Assembly: GCF_029760955.1 (NCBI RefSeq)
Contig: NZ_CP121682.1
Coordinates: forward strand, 6,448,001-6,512,000
Source: Streptomyces cathayae
GTDB lineage: Bacteria; Actinomycetota; Actinomycetes; Streptomycetales; Streptomycetaceae
Length of the DNA stretch: 64,000 nucleotides
Direction of reading: 5' to 3'
A program made the translations under genes and the position numbers. Under the pieces are notes generated by a model. It was not told the DNA's origin. It searched no databases and saw only the letters and a list, made by a program, of their open reading frames with translations. Below, piece after piece: positions 2,757-63,365 of the stretch (within the stretch, counting starts at the first letter, position 1; the number at the start of each line of letters is the position of its first letter).

Positions 2757-4286
2757 TCAGCCGCTCGCTCCCGGCCTGTTGAATCCAGGCCCGGCCTTCG
2801 GAGACGGTTCGTGGTCTCGGACATAGACGGTGACTCGCGCCCCGTTGACATGGGTTGTTCCGTGCTCGCGGAAGTGGCGCCGCAGGGTGCTTGTTTTCGC
2901 TTGCTCCTGCGGGTTGGTCGGCGAGTGCGCACCCGCCGGGTCGCGGACCGTGACGATTCGGTCGAATTCCAGCATGCGTGCCGCTATGTCTTGGGCGGGA
3001 AGCTCGACACCTGCAAGTGTGTTCGACGAAACGGGGTCCTGTGCCAGCGCCAGATCCGTCAGGAAACGGGTGTCCTCGGGGTTGGCCGCGGTCCAGATCC
3101 GGTGCTGGCCGGAGAGATAGAGCAGTCCGTCGCCGGTACGGCCCACCTCGCGTACGGTGGCGCCGATGGCGGTGACGTCATTGCTTCGGCTCTGGGGCGT
3201 CCTCAGCCAAAGGCCCGTCAGGACGAGTGCGGCCAGTACGGCAACCGCGGCCACTCCCGCAACCGCCGCGTTGCGGGACGACTTCCGCTGCTGGTGGAAG
3301 TGATCCATGCAGGCGCCCACCAGCAAGGCGATTCCGATGTTGCTGTAGAGCACGTACCGATCGACGAAGAGGGGCTTGACCAGCGAGGCGATCAGCAGCA
3401 GAAGGCACGGAAGCACAACGATCGGCACAGCCAGCACAGGGAGCCGCACGGGTCCCCTCGTCGCCACGGGCGCCAGGGCACACGCCACGCCCACGACCGC
3501 CGCGGCCAGGAATTCAGGAAGCCGCACCGGTACGTCGATCCAGGACACCTGCGCGGACTGCTCCGCACTGCGGACCGCCAGCGGCAACAGTCCGGCCACC
3601 ACGCTTGCGGCAGTCACGCCCCACGCCCTCAGCACCGGTCGCGGAACACGGGAGACGACCAGTGCGACGCCGTGTGCGACCAGGGCGAGAACCGCGAACT
3701 CATGGAGCAGGCAGGCCAGTAGCATGGTGCAGCCGTAGACCGCCCACCGCCATCGGGCGTGACGCGTGACGCCGACCACGAGCGCATAGGTGGCCCAGGC
3801 GACCAGGGCGCAGACCATGGCGTACGAGCGGCCTTCCTGCGTGTACTTCTGCACCTGAGGAAGGAGCGGAAACACCAGCCCGGCCAGCAGCCCGACACGC
3901 GGCCCCGCCAGACGCAGGCCCAGCAGCCCGACTGCGCTCGCCGCCGCGGACATCGCCAGCACGGACGGCAGCCGCAACGACAGCAGTCCTGCGCCGAAGA
4001 GACCGAAGATCTCATGCATCACGGCGTAGTGGAGGGCATGGACCAGATCGACATGCTGGGCGGTGAGCCATATCTGCGAAAGGTCGCGGTGCGCGAGCTG
4101 GTAGGTGACGGACTCGTCCCCCCACATGGTGTTCTTCCTGCGGATGCCCCAGAGTCCCAGAGCGATGGTCAGCAGCATGGGCGCGAGGACGACAACCGCT
4201 CGGGCCGGGCGCGGTGACGGCCGACGGACGGGTGGGGGAGCAGCGACCGTCTCGATCACGGCGGGCGCACGTTCATCAACGGACAT
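2757..4286 (-). CDS. GT39-like multispanning membrane glycosyltransferase
   Basis: The protein has 509 residues with about ten hydrophobic helices and a C-terminal extracytoplasmic part of about 130 residues. After the first helix comes WGDESVTYQLAHRD, matching the catalytic acidic loop of GT-C (PMT/ArnT-type) enzymes. PQVQKYTQEGRSYA resembles the conserved Y/R segment of the family. It should transfer a sugar from a polyprenyl-phosphate donor on the outer membrane face to an unknown acceptor. It is divergent from the two-component pair (128 bp between starts), which may control it. Confidence 0.75.
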   Translation of the reverse strand: MSVDERAPAVIETVAAPPPVRRPSPRPARAVVVLAPMLLTIALGLWGIRRKNTMWGDESVTYQLAHRDLSQIWLTAQHVDLVHALHYAVMHEIFGLFGAGLLSLRLPSVLAMSAAASAVGLLGLRLAGPRVGLLAGLVFPLLPQVQKYTQEGRSYAMVCALVAWATYALVVGVTRHARWRWAVYGCTMLLACLLHEFAVLALVAHGVALVVSRVPRPVLRAWGVTAASVVAGLLPLAVRSAEQSAQVSWIDVPVRLPEFLAAAVVGVACALAPVATRGPVRLPVLAVPIVVLPCLLLLIASLVKPLFVDRYVLYSNIGIALLVGACMDHFHQQRKSSRNAAVAGVAAVAVLAALVLTGLWLRTPQSRSNDVTAIGATVREVGRTGDGLLYLSGQHRIWTAANPEDTRFLTDLALAQDPVSSNTLAGVELPAQDIAARMLEFDRIVTVRDPAGAHSPTNPQEQAKTSTLRRHFREHGTTHVNGARVTVYVRDHEPSPKAGPGFNRPGASG

Positions 4287-60355: not shown

Positions 60356-60690
60356 CAACCCCTCGCGCGCCACCGGCAGTTGACCTCCAGTCCGCTGCCC
60401 GCTCCGGTGATACCCGGTCGGTGCGCGCCGTACGCGGGTACCGGCCGCTCCGTCGCAACCCGTCGCAACCCGCCGCAGCCCCTCGCCACCCGGCTCCGTG
60501 CGGCCGCGGGTGCCCGTGGGAGCCGGGCCGGATGTGCGCCGATCACGCTCAGTGAGGGCCCGTATCGCGCTCGGTGCGGGCCGGCCGCGGGGAATGATTT
60601 CGCATCCGACCGGTTCGGGTCGGTACGATCGCACCCGTGCGTGCGCTCAGGTATGGCGCCGCAGTCAAAGCCTTCAGTCAGGAGAGACCG
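60356..60690. other. Divergent intergenic region with short tandem repeats, upstream of thrS
   Basis: Four imperfect 10-base units of the type CGTCGCAACC lie in tandem near 60448-60490. A second pair (GATCACGCTCAGTGAGGGCC and TATCGCGCTCGGTGCGGGCC) lies near 60541-60583. TACGAT at 60624-60629 could be the thrS -10. I see no T-box. No gene is supported. Confidence 0.4.
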
Positions 60691-62667
60691 GTGTCAGACG
60701 TCCGTGTGATCATCCAACGCGATTCCGAGCGGGACGAGCGCGTGGTGACCACGGGCACCACGGCCGCCGAGCTCTTCGCAGGCGAGCGCTCGATCATCGC
60801 GGCGCGGGTGGCCGGTGAGCTCAAGGACCTCGCCTACGAGGTCAAGGACGGCGAGACCGTCGAGGGCGTCGAGATCTCCTCCGAGGACGGCCTGAACATC
60901 CTGCGCCACTCCACCGCGCACGTCATGGCGCAGGCAGTGCAGGAACTGTTCCCCGAGGCCAAGCTGGGCATCGGCCCGCCGGTCCGGGACGGCTTCTACT
61001 ACGACTTCGACGTCGACAAGCCCTTCCACCCCGATGACCTCAAGGCCATCGAGAAGCGCATGCAGGAGATCCAGAAGCGCGGCCAGCGCTTCTCCCGCCG
61101 CGTGGTCACCGACGACGAGGCCCGCGAGGAGCTCGCCGACGAGCCGTACAAGCTGGAACTGATCGGCATCAAGGGTTCCGCGTCGCACGACGACGGCGCG
61201 GACGTCGAGGTCGGCGCCGGCGAGCTGACGATCTACGACAACCTGGACGCCAAGACCGGCGAACTGTGCTGGCGGGATCTCTGCCGTGGCCCGCACCTGC
61301 CGACCACCCGGAACATCCCGGCGTTCAAGCTCATGCGCAACGCCTCGGCGTACTGGCGCGGCAGCGAGAAGAACAAGCAGCTCCAGCGGATCTACGGCAC
61401 CGCCTGGCCGACCAAGGACGAGCTGAAGGCGCACCTGGAGTTCCTCGCCGAGGCCGAGAAGCGCGACCACCGCAAGCTGGGCTCCGAGCTCGACCTGTTC
61501 TCCATCCCCGAGCAGATCGGCTCCGGTCTCGCCGTCTTCCACCCCAAGGGCGGCATCATCCGCCGGGTCATGGAGGACTACTCGCGGCGCAGGCACGAGG
61601 AGGAGGGCTACGAGTTCGTCTACACCCCGCACGCGACCAAGGGGAAACTTTTCGAGACCTCGGGCCACCTGGACTGGTACGCCGACGGCATGTACCCGCC
61701 CATGCAGCTCGACGAGGGCGTGGACTACTACCTCAAGCCCATGAACTGCCCGATGCACAACCTGATCTTCGACGCGCGCGGCCGGTCGTACCGTGAACTG
61801 CCCCTGAGGCTTTTTGAGTTCGGCACGGTCTACCGCTACGAGAAGTCGGGCGTCGTGCACGGTCTGACCCGCGCCCGCGGCTTCACCCAGGACGACGCGC
61901 ACATCTACTGCACCCGCGAGCAGATGTCCGAGGAGCTCGACAAGACCCTCACCTTCGTCCTGAACCTGCTGCGCGACTACGGTCTGACCGACTTCTACCT
62001 GGAGCTGTCCACCAAGGACGAGACGAAGTTCGTCGGCACGGACGAGGCGTGGGAGGAGGCCACCGAGACCCTCCGCCAGGTCGCCGAGAAGCAGGGCCTG
62101 CCGCTGGTCCCGGACCCGGGCGGCGCCGCCTTCTACGGACCGAAGATCTCCGTGCAGGCCCGCGATGCCATCGGCCGCACCTGGCAGATGTCGACGATCC
62201 AGCTCGACTTCAACCTGCCGGAGCGCTTCGACCTGGAGTACACCGCCGCGGACGGCTCCAAGACCCGCCCGGTCATGATCCACCGCGCGCTGTTCGGCTC
62301 CATCGAGCGGTTCTTCGCGGTACTCCTCGAGCACTACGCGGGCGCCTTCCCGGCATGGCTGGCGCCGGTGCAGGCGGTGGGCATCCCGGTGGGCGACGCG
62401 CACGTGGAGTACCTGGAGAAGTTCGCCGCGGACGCGAAGAAGCAGGGCCTGAGGGTCGAGGTGGACTCCTCCTCGGACCGTATGCAGAAGAAGATCCGCA
62501 CGCAGCAGAAGCTCAAGGTGCCGTTCATGATCATCGTCGGTGACGACGACATGAACGCGGGCACGGTGTCGTTCCGCTACCGCGACGGTTCGCAGGAGAA
62601 CGGCGTTCCGCGTGACGAAGCGCTGGCGAAGCTCGTTGACGTGGTGGAGCGTCGCGTTCAGGTCTGA
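60691..62667 (+). CDS. thrS: Threonyl-tRNA synthetase
   Basis: The protein has 658 residues from GTG with AGGAGAG upstream. Order: TGS domain (1-65), editing/SAD domain with HSTAH at 73-77 and DLCRGPH at 196-202 (Cys198, His202), class II catalytic core with motif 2 FRYEK-type [29 protein letters not shown] and motif 3 [12 protein letters not shown], then the anticodon-binding domain. It charges tRNA-Thr and removes Ser-tRNA-Thr. The [11 protein letters not shown] coding stretch matches the spacer of the CRISPR-like unit right after the gene. Confidence 0.97.
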
Positions 62668-62669
62668 TG

Positions 62670-62758
62670 CGGTCCCCGCCTGAGCGGGGGTGATCCCGAC
62701 CTCTGCCGTGGTCCGCACCTGCCGACCACCTGCTCCCCGCCTGCGCGGGGATCGGCCC
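62670..62758 (+). CRISPR. CRISPR-like mini-array: two degenerate type I-E repeats and one thrS-matching spacer
   Basis: Repeat 1 (62670-62697) and repeat 2 (62731-62758) are 28 nt each and agree at 21 positions. Both carry the TCCCCGC...GCGGGG core palindrome of type I-E repeats, in the orientation of the E. coli repeat. The spacer (62698-62730) is 33 nt. It equals thrS 61276-61308 except for C for T at position 3 and T for C at 15. Both changes are silent and the match stops at the spacer edges. The unit starts three bases after the thrS stop. No leader or cas gene is seen. Confidence 0.6.
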
Positions 62759-62784
62759 CCGGGTATTCCCCGGGGGCCTTTGCC
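62754..62784 (+). terminator. Terminator of thrS, overlapping the last CRISPR-like repeat
   Basis: GGCCCCCGGG pairs with CCCGGGGGCC around TATTC, and TTT follows. Its left arm begins inside the end of repeat 2. Confidence 0.75.
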
Positions 62785-62816: not shown

Positions 62817-63365
62817 ATGACGAGTGAGCCGGAGCAGCAGTCGGGAGTGGGTACGCAGGACGCGTTCCAGCGTCTGTGGACGCCCCACCGGATGGCCTAC
62901 ATCCAGGGCGAGAACAAGCCGAGCGGCCCGGGTGCCGACGACGGCTGTCCCTTCTGCTCCATCCCGGCCACGTCCGACGAGGACGGGCTGATCATCAAGC
63001 GCGGCGAGCTGGTCTACGCCGTGCTCAACCTCTACCCCTACACGGGCGGCCACCTGATGACGGTGCCGTACCGCCACGTCGCCGACTACACGGACCTGAC
63101 GACGGGAGAGACGGCGGAGCTCGCCGAGTTCACCCAGCACGCGATGAGTGCCCTGCGCACCGCCTCCGGCGCGCACGGCTTCAACATCGGCATGAACCAG
63201 GGCACCGTCGCGGGCGCCGGCATCGCCGGGCATCTGCACCAGCACGTCGTACCCCGCTGGGGCGGCGACACCAATTTCATGCCCGTGATCGGCCACACGA
63301 AGGTGCTGCCGCAGCTGCTGGGCGACACCCGCAAGATGCTGGCGGAGGCCTGGCCGACAGACTGA
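62817..63365 (+). CDS. HIT-family nucleotide hydrolase/transferase
   Basis: The protein has 182 residues. It shows DDGCPFCSIPATSDEDGLII (zinc-type Cys pair), VLNLYPYTGGHLMTVPYRHV and the His triad HLHQHVVPRW. It should act on nucleotide phosphoesters or phosphoramidates such as Ap4A. The conserved position next to thrS suggests a link to aminoacyl-adenylate turnover, but this is inferred. ATG 62817 is chosen since residues before it are not conserved. Confidence 0.88.
   Translation: MTSEPEQQSGVGTQDAFQRLWTPHRMAYIQGENKPSGPGADDGCPFCSIPATSDEDGLIIKRGELVYAVLNLYPYTGGHLMTVPYRHVADYTDLTTGETAELAEFTQHAMSALRTASGAHGFNIGMNQGTVAGAGIAGHLHQHVVPRWGGDTNFMPVIGHTKVLPQLLGDTRKMLAEAWPTD

Follow-up and report, generated by a model that had tools for sequence, protein, structure and literature searches.

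A one-spacer type I-E CRISPR unit beside thrS in Streptomyces: a candidate guide-only, self-protected allele killer

Results and Discussion

Why should a CRISPR spacer lie directly downstream of the gene that it matches? The question is raised by a one-spacer type I-E mini-array in the 3′ untranslated region of thrS in Streptomyces cathayae, which a sequence-only reading had described and which is present as noted. The answer we favor, with a probability of about 0.6, is that the mini-array may be a guide-only, self-protected allele killer that borrows the type I-E Cas proteins of its host and to which the linked thrS allele would be immune. The stretch of DNA analyzed, referred to below as the window, covers 64,000 nucleotides (contig NZ_CP121682.1, positions 6,448,001 to 6,512,000), and coordinates given without a genome label are positions within it. 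The features of the locus are as follows.

60637..62667, plus strand: thrS, threonyl-tRNA synthetase, the linked and putatively self-protected target gene (open reading frame, Pfam)
61273..61275, plus strand: PAM position of the own protospacer, CGG (Arg) here and AAG (Lys) in 97/99 array-less genomes
61276..61307, plus strand: own protospacer in thrS, differing from the spacer at positions 3 and 15
62669..62697, plus strand: repeat 1 of the mini-array, a type I-E-like hairpin (sequence, fold)
62698..62729, plus strand: spacer (guide), in the same sense as thrS
62730..62758, plus strand: repeat 2 of the mini-array, a type I-E-like hairpin (sequence, fold)
62754..62778, plus strand: terminator-like hairpin 3′ of the array, sharing the last bases of repeat 2 (fold)
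62817..63365, plus strand: HIT-family gene, own-genome target of the G130, L116, L167, and G269 spacers (open reading frame, Pfam)

Structure of the mini-array

The repeats are most plausibly 29 nt long, with a 32-nt spacer and a period of 61 nt. The I-E-like form recognized by the sequence-only reading was retained, and its lengths (28-nt repeats and a 33-nt spacer) were revised. Indeed, ~29-nt repeats with a G+C hairpin, 32- to 33-nt spacers, and a 61-nt period are the form of a type I-E array; a few of the units collected from relatives had periods of 58 to 62 nt. The spacer is identical to thrS 61276-61307 at 30/32 positions, or at the originally counted 31/33 if the next base is added. 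As had also been reported, the match ends at both spacer flanks, and both mismatches are synonymous (GAC/GAT and GGT/GGC). When 2,000 random 32-mers from the window were compared with the thrS-HIT region, the best matches had at least 6 mismatches (6 in 1/2000, mostly 11 to 13) versus the 2 observed for the spacer, and a chance match to thrS is therefore excluded.

It is scarcely credible that the unit is a segmental duplication, or a decoration of a hairpin or terminator, with no CRISPR meaning. Streptomyces terminators often contain G+C-rich hairpins, which would suit such an origin, but it does not account for the 61-nt period, the I-E repeat form, and the spacer-only matches, nor for the antisense targets, AAN PAMs, and six-base register described below.

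The mini-array sits between the thrS stop (62667) and the terminator-like hairpin, a placement absent from the earlier reading, and with this layout it would be read together with thrS. By eye, a terminator-like hairpin follows the array in a like layout in many other carriers. No close second thrS was found in the window's genome, and a thrS paralogue as the spacer target was rejected accordingly. Two further candidates were rejected: a plasmid or phage vehicle, as the array region had no match in plasmid and phage collections, and a homing guide of a CRISPR-associated transposon, as the interval from the thrS stop to HIT holds no further gene in the window.

Recurrence downstream of thrS

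Comparison of the thrS-HIT region among relatives, suggested by the sequence-only reading, revealed that repeat units recur there with differing thrS and HIT spacers. At least 28 units, including that of the window, were collected after thrS in Streptomyces and Kitasatospora. A pattern search of 392 genomes of the genus yielded 8 (window's included) with repeat-spacer-repeat upstream of HIT, and four further units were obtained from G089, G116, G147, and G070. Among the best 80 of 120 loci from a scan of named genomes, at least 20 units lay directly after thrS, 16 of them new. In the 28 units, the first stem begins 4 to 7 nt past the thrS stop. With the exception of two identical ones the spacers differ; a script placed 24/28 of them at 13 sites, of which 11 are in thrS (four antisense) and 2 in HIT.

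From a set of 150 genomes, 117 were examined at the thrS spot; a unit was present in 8/117, which is not an unbiased frequency, as 16 genomes had been picked as positive-looking or odd. Eight other genomes of the 117 keep one repeat-like hairpin, as judged by eye. Among the 117 stretches, thrS was not found in L269, and two contain masked bases. In many genomes that lack an array (e.g., L095), HIT often lies 500 to 1,000 bp from thrS, with an intervening frame that appears potassium channel-like by eye. The units keep to the thrS stop and not to HIT.

Targets in array-less genomes

The sequence-only reading had proposed capture of the spacer from an orthologous thrS. In agreement with this, the spacer fits thrS of the array-less relative G005 at 32/32 positions, with the PAM AAG. 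In excerpts of two reports, the S. avermitilis I-E system is described as acquiring spacers next to AAG (PMC4762764) and its effective PAM as AAN (PMC12231136). AAN was found 5′ of the site in 2219/2371 spacer-genome pairs from 99 array-less genomes, after 5 of 2,376 pairs had been dropped for more than 14 mismatches. The AAG or AAN expected 5′ of I-E protospacers is thus present in array-less genomes and missing from the window's own copy, where CGG occupies the three bases 5′ of the protospacer. The spacer statistics do not include G089.

According to the part of PMC11127173 consulted, every sixth base of the guide is flipped out in class 1 effectors. Spacer mismatches to the array-less consensus numbered 72/135 at positions 6, 12, 18, 24, and 30 (6n), compared to 29/135 at positions 3, 9, 15, 21, and 27 (6n+3) and 51/594 elsewhere; these counts include the L103, L106, and L112 spacers, whose automatically assigned site is unreliable. 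Those three were left out of the one-spacer-per-site, rare-base, and cleavability tests. With one spacer per site, mismatches were found at 32/65 6n positions, 12/65 6n+3 positions, and 15/286 others. As 6n and 6n+3 are both codon wobble positions, codon drift alone has no power to explain the 6n excess. Array-less genomes themselves vary more at 6n (0.161) than at 6n+3 (0.108), so a stricter test was applied that counted only spacer bases shared by no more than 2% of array-less genomes; it also left out L166, whose spacer is that of L134. Such bases occurred at 30/115 6n positions versus 2/115 6n+3 positions (p = 4e-8) and at 17/506 of the remaining positions. The G269 spacer, for example, has TAG, TAG, and CAG where HIT has TAC, TAC, and CAC (positions 6, 12, and 24). 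To judge from these sequences, the mismatch pattern is that expected of a guide whose reading by Cascade would be selected for.

These observations bear on an accidental origin, in which a stray spacer from the cell's own thrS was inserted at a hairpin resembling a repeat, with target mutation letting the cell survive. Survival of self-targeting through PAM or protospacer mutation or through spacer loss is described in the portion of PMC6990116 seen, and single relic repeats are present at the thrS spot. A relic of this kind is nevertheless improbable: the spacer stays matched to the thrS of other species at the positions read by Cascade while drifting at 6n, and units with 13 sites are found repeatedly at this one place, as well as at other genes.

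Protection of the own copy

The PAM codon of the own target is CGN (Arg, in place of Lys) in 7/23 carriers. The remaining 16/23 keep AAN and have 4 to 9 mismatches at read positions. A spacer-target pair was scored as cleavable if it had AAN, no seed mismatch except at position 6, and at most 4 mismatches at read positions. By this rule, 1/23 own pairs were cleavable, compared to 222/601 pairs with other carriers, 87/192 with single-repeat genomes, and 1502/2371 with array-less genomes (carriers versus array-less, per genome, p = 1e-9). Hence, the array-bearing thrS allele would be resistant and the array-free allele sensitive; at ffh (see below) the same holds only in part. The suggestion that the non-AAG PAM (CGG) could explain tolerance in S. 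cathayae agrees with this picture, as its own copy lacks a PAM.

The same data weigh on the other proposal of the sequence-only reading, a domesticated regulator, in which a crRNA made with the thrS mRNA would let Cascade repress thrS by feedback. The array does lie in the thrS 3′ UTR and is co-oriented with the gene. However, an autoregulator should keep its own target pairable, and in 22/23 carriers the own gene is, by one sequence rule, the protected copy, lacking a PAM or pairing. Furthermore, targets occur on either strand, they are spread over many parts of thrS or lie in HIT, and 13/28 carriers have no Cse1 hit. We consider autoregulation very improbable; as an early hypothesis, based on thrS spacers in several species, it was dropped because the own targets are unpaired or PAM-less.

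Divergence of thrS at target sites

The thrS of the window differs from that of the close relative G142 by 1.9% overall, and over the 12 codons of the target site the difference rises to 19.4% (P = 5e-5 for this site and 0.012 for any such window). G142 keeps one repeat and has AAA at the PAM position versus CGG in the window, a three-base change. Across 21 carriers, the own site differed on average by 18.4% from the nearest genome, versus 8.6% for the gene; nearest here means nearest outside the 21 tested, which for L106 is the carrier L079. The excess was absent in 4/21 carriers (L105, L123, L112, and L080).

In close pairs that include carriers, the 8 windows of largest excess divergence all overlap known spacer sites; the RRHEE site ranked 14th, and ATK and IHR were absent among the 18 windows listed. 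Divergence at the sites relative to that outside them had a ratio of 2.32 among carrier pairs (n = 11), 1.39 among mixed pairs (n = 9), and 0.84 among array-less pairs (n = 144) (p = 5e-8, with close pairs that share genomes and so are not independent). L106 and L153, which have different spacers, differ by 4.0% in thrS and by 17 to 25% at four such sites. Weaker excess divergence in carriers was seen at thrS codons 47-58, 77-88, 398-409, and 426-437 (window numbering), for which no spacer is known; it is possible that these are target sites of unsampled spacers.

The window's thrS also has rare codons at sites targeted by spacers of other species. Three patches of the gene are of note.

61633..61653, plus strand: thrS patch ATKGKLF, with rare codons AAA CTT; other-strand target of the S. 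sennicomposti (L123) spacer
61792..61815, plus strand: thrS patch RELPLRLF, with codons AGG CTT TTT; target of the antisense spacer of G334
62161..62196, plus strand: thrS DAIGRTWQM site, with PAM codon CGC here and AAG in 75/99 array-less genomes

The DAIGRTWQM site is matched by the spacers of G378, L134, L140, and L166. At own sites, 25/265 codons were rare versus 379/13633 elsewhere, with a weak per-gene rank test (combined p = 0.049).

Host I-E system and distribution of carriers

The sequence-only reading had pointed to cas3/cascade genes and to other arrays with the same repeat as telling features. The genome of the window (7.6 Mb, 2 contigs) indeed encodes a full cas3-cse1-cse2-cas7-cas5-cas6e-cas1-cas2 set, and its main I-E arrays have the 61-nt period of the mini-array. 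None of the 79 main-array spacers fits the thrS-HIT region (9 to 15 mismatches). The genome also contains a small orphan array of three repeats, the last one degenerate (G000:C1:1911522-1911690, L065); its spacers served as a control, and their best local matches within 11 kb had 10 to 11 mismatches. Cse1 (PF09481) was found in 15/28 carrier genomes, so the guide may not be usable in some of the carriers. In G060, cas6e is present and a Cse1 hit is absent; a diverged Cse1 could be missed.

On the thrS tree, the carriers (26/133 rows) require 19 changes, 12 of them forced by starred branches, versus a mean of 24.0 with shuffled labels; carriers are scattered, yet more clustered than shuffled labels. 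Branches far apart on the tree share the same target sites. Arrays were present in 7/55 cas6e-positive versus 1/62 cas6e-negative genomes (p = 0.025, kinship ignored), and array-less genomes were less cleavable if they had cas6e (mean of 0.58 versus 0.67; p = 0.005, kinship ignored). When thrS was compared with its flanks in 20 genomes, no excess identity was found, and identity between the window and other carriers was about that predicted by the flanking genes. A horizontal origin of the window's thrS allele from another sampled species was rejected on these grounds.

The main rival reading is that the units serve the host, as an immune memory acquired from the chromosomal DNA of mating partners and a barrier to foreign thrS alleles, with nothing selfish about them. 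Its targets and PAMs would be the same as those of an allele killer, the window's genome holds a complete I-E system with cas1-cas2, and the uptake of spacers at AAG by S. avermitilis I-E (PMC4762764, as excerpted) suits it as well. However, spacers gained in this way normally join the leader end of the main array, while here they lie beside the target, at three loci. In addition, 1 of 8 carriers lacks cas6e and 13 of 28 have no Cse1 hit, and the main-array spacers (0/79) do not fit thrS-HIT. On balance, a host-serving barrier appears unlikely.

Similar units at other loci

A second unit of the window's genome lies between glnD and ffh.

G000:C1:2349686-2349775 (L066), minus strand: second unit, glnD-ffh intergenic region (pattern, Pfam)

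Its spacer aligns to the region of ffh encoding the M domain with 10 mismatches, four of them at 6n, and the PAM AAA. Units between glnD and ffh occur in 9 of the best 30 loci, including that of the window's genome, and 7/9 spacers have a target by script, six in ffh and one in glnD. That of G101 has its target at 7 mismatches, and those of G022 and G142 had no target in ffh or glnD by script. Mismatches to the consensus were found at 20/40 6n positions, 8/40 6n+3 positions, and 29/176 others, counted over 8 spacers of which one (G022) is spurious. Protection of the own copy is clear in G130 (PAM TCC versus AAC in 12/21 relatives) and G131 (10 own mismatches versus 3 to the consensus). It is not clear in G000, G101, and G035, whose spacers have about as many mismatches to the own copy as to the array-less consensus. 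Recoding of the own ffh in G000 was rejected, because the spacer differs from own copy and consensus alike at positions 7 to 10.

Units with antisense spacers were found at a third place, 5′ of a DUF3817 gene (Pfam), in the two genomes analyzed for units there.

L371, about 3992-4085: unit before the DUF3817 gene in G022
L372, about 4098-4191: unit before the DUF3817 gene in G014

The PAM at this site is AAG in 27/28 other genomes. The own site has ACC and 7 mismatches in G022; in G014 it has AAG, with 11 mismatches versus 6 to the consensus. The first-repeat stems of the two units have paired changes (CTCCGC/GCGGAG and CCCTGC/GCAGGG) that keep the hairpin. For four isolated repeat pairs, L366 (G130:C222:4084-4168), L368 (G022:C51), L367 (G142:C144), and L378 (G142:C24), the spacers had no target in the flanks. 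By eye, frames near these pairs are uvrA-like, cobN/chelatase-like, and cas3-like.

Thus, the unit design appears not to be confined to thrS, with thinner evidence at ffh and DUF3817 and an apparent protection signal that is weaker at ffh than at thrS. At all three loci the putative guide adjoins the gene that it would target, the linkage of cutter and target expected of homing elements.

Proposed mode of action and meaning

For the allele killer proposed here, the following course is envisaged. The crRNA would be freed from the thrS transcript by Cas6e, and Cascade-Cas3 supplied by the host would cut element-free thrS alleles, whether these belong to a mating recipient or arrive on incoming DNA. 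The cut allele would then be lost, or be repaired from the immune allele with the array carried along. The outcome would be intronless homing or a form of cleave and rescue in which the nuclease is borrowed from host immunity, and this homing or exclusion of rival alleles would take place during Streptomyces mating. Rescue of an essential gene would not be a general trait, since no essential role of DUF3817 is known, and the ffh and DUF3817 units suggest that the design is not limited to thrS. The wider proposal, that protein-free, one-guide natural homing cassettes of ~90 bp stand beside Streptomyces housekeeping genes and that the changed-codon patches in thrS are scars of an arms race between guides, is tentative, with the odds falling just short of even.

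If the proposal is true, gene drives of the cleave-and-rescue type exist naturally in bacteria and are made of the guide alone, and CRISPR immunity gains a new role as the tool of a selfish element. It would also explain the odd synonymous patches and Lys-to-Arg changes in the essential thrS and offer a readable record of allele warfare in Streptomyces mating. Moreover, the six-base register of Cascade would be an evolutionary signature, usable for finding such elements elsewhere. A search limited to the open-access literature found no report of such elements.

Comparison with known systems

Free-standing homing endonucleases such as SegF of phage T4 adjoin their target gene and cut the version without them; in this intronless homing, the own version is resistant, and repair co-converts the neighborhood. 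The thrS guide is likewise linked to its target, with a protected own copy and a presumed cutting step, but is a cassette of ~90 bp whose nuclease would be the I-E Cascade-Cas3 of the host. Synthetic cleave-and-rescue elements and CRISPR gene drives combine a guide with a linked, recoded target gene. The thrS unit resembles them in joining a guide to an altered target gene, and differs in being natural, bacterial, of type I, and free of Cas genes.

Regulatory crRNAs, CreTA among them, work through partial pairing with a host promoter. They too are small repeat-spacer units apart from the main array, whereas at thrS the host copy lacks a PAM or pairing. Haloarchaea are reported to carry spacers against chromosomal genes of relatives after mating. 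These resemble the thrS units as guides against housekeeping genes of related species but are in normal arrays and not linked to an altered target. A further case is that of Pelobacter carbinolicus, in which, according to an excerpt of the report, an array spacer matches the cell's own hisS and inhibits growth in a test host (PMC2923632). Both are CRISPR spacers that match an aminoacyl-tRNA synthetase gene. In contrast to what the excerpt describes for hisS, the thrS unit is linked to its target and has a protected own copy, and its design is found repeatedly across the genus and at other genes.
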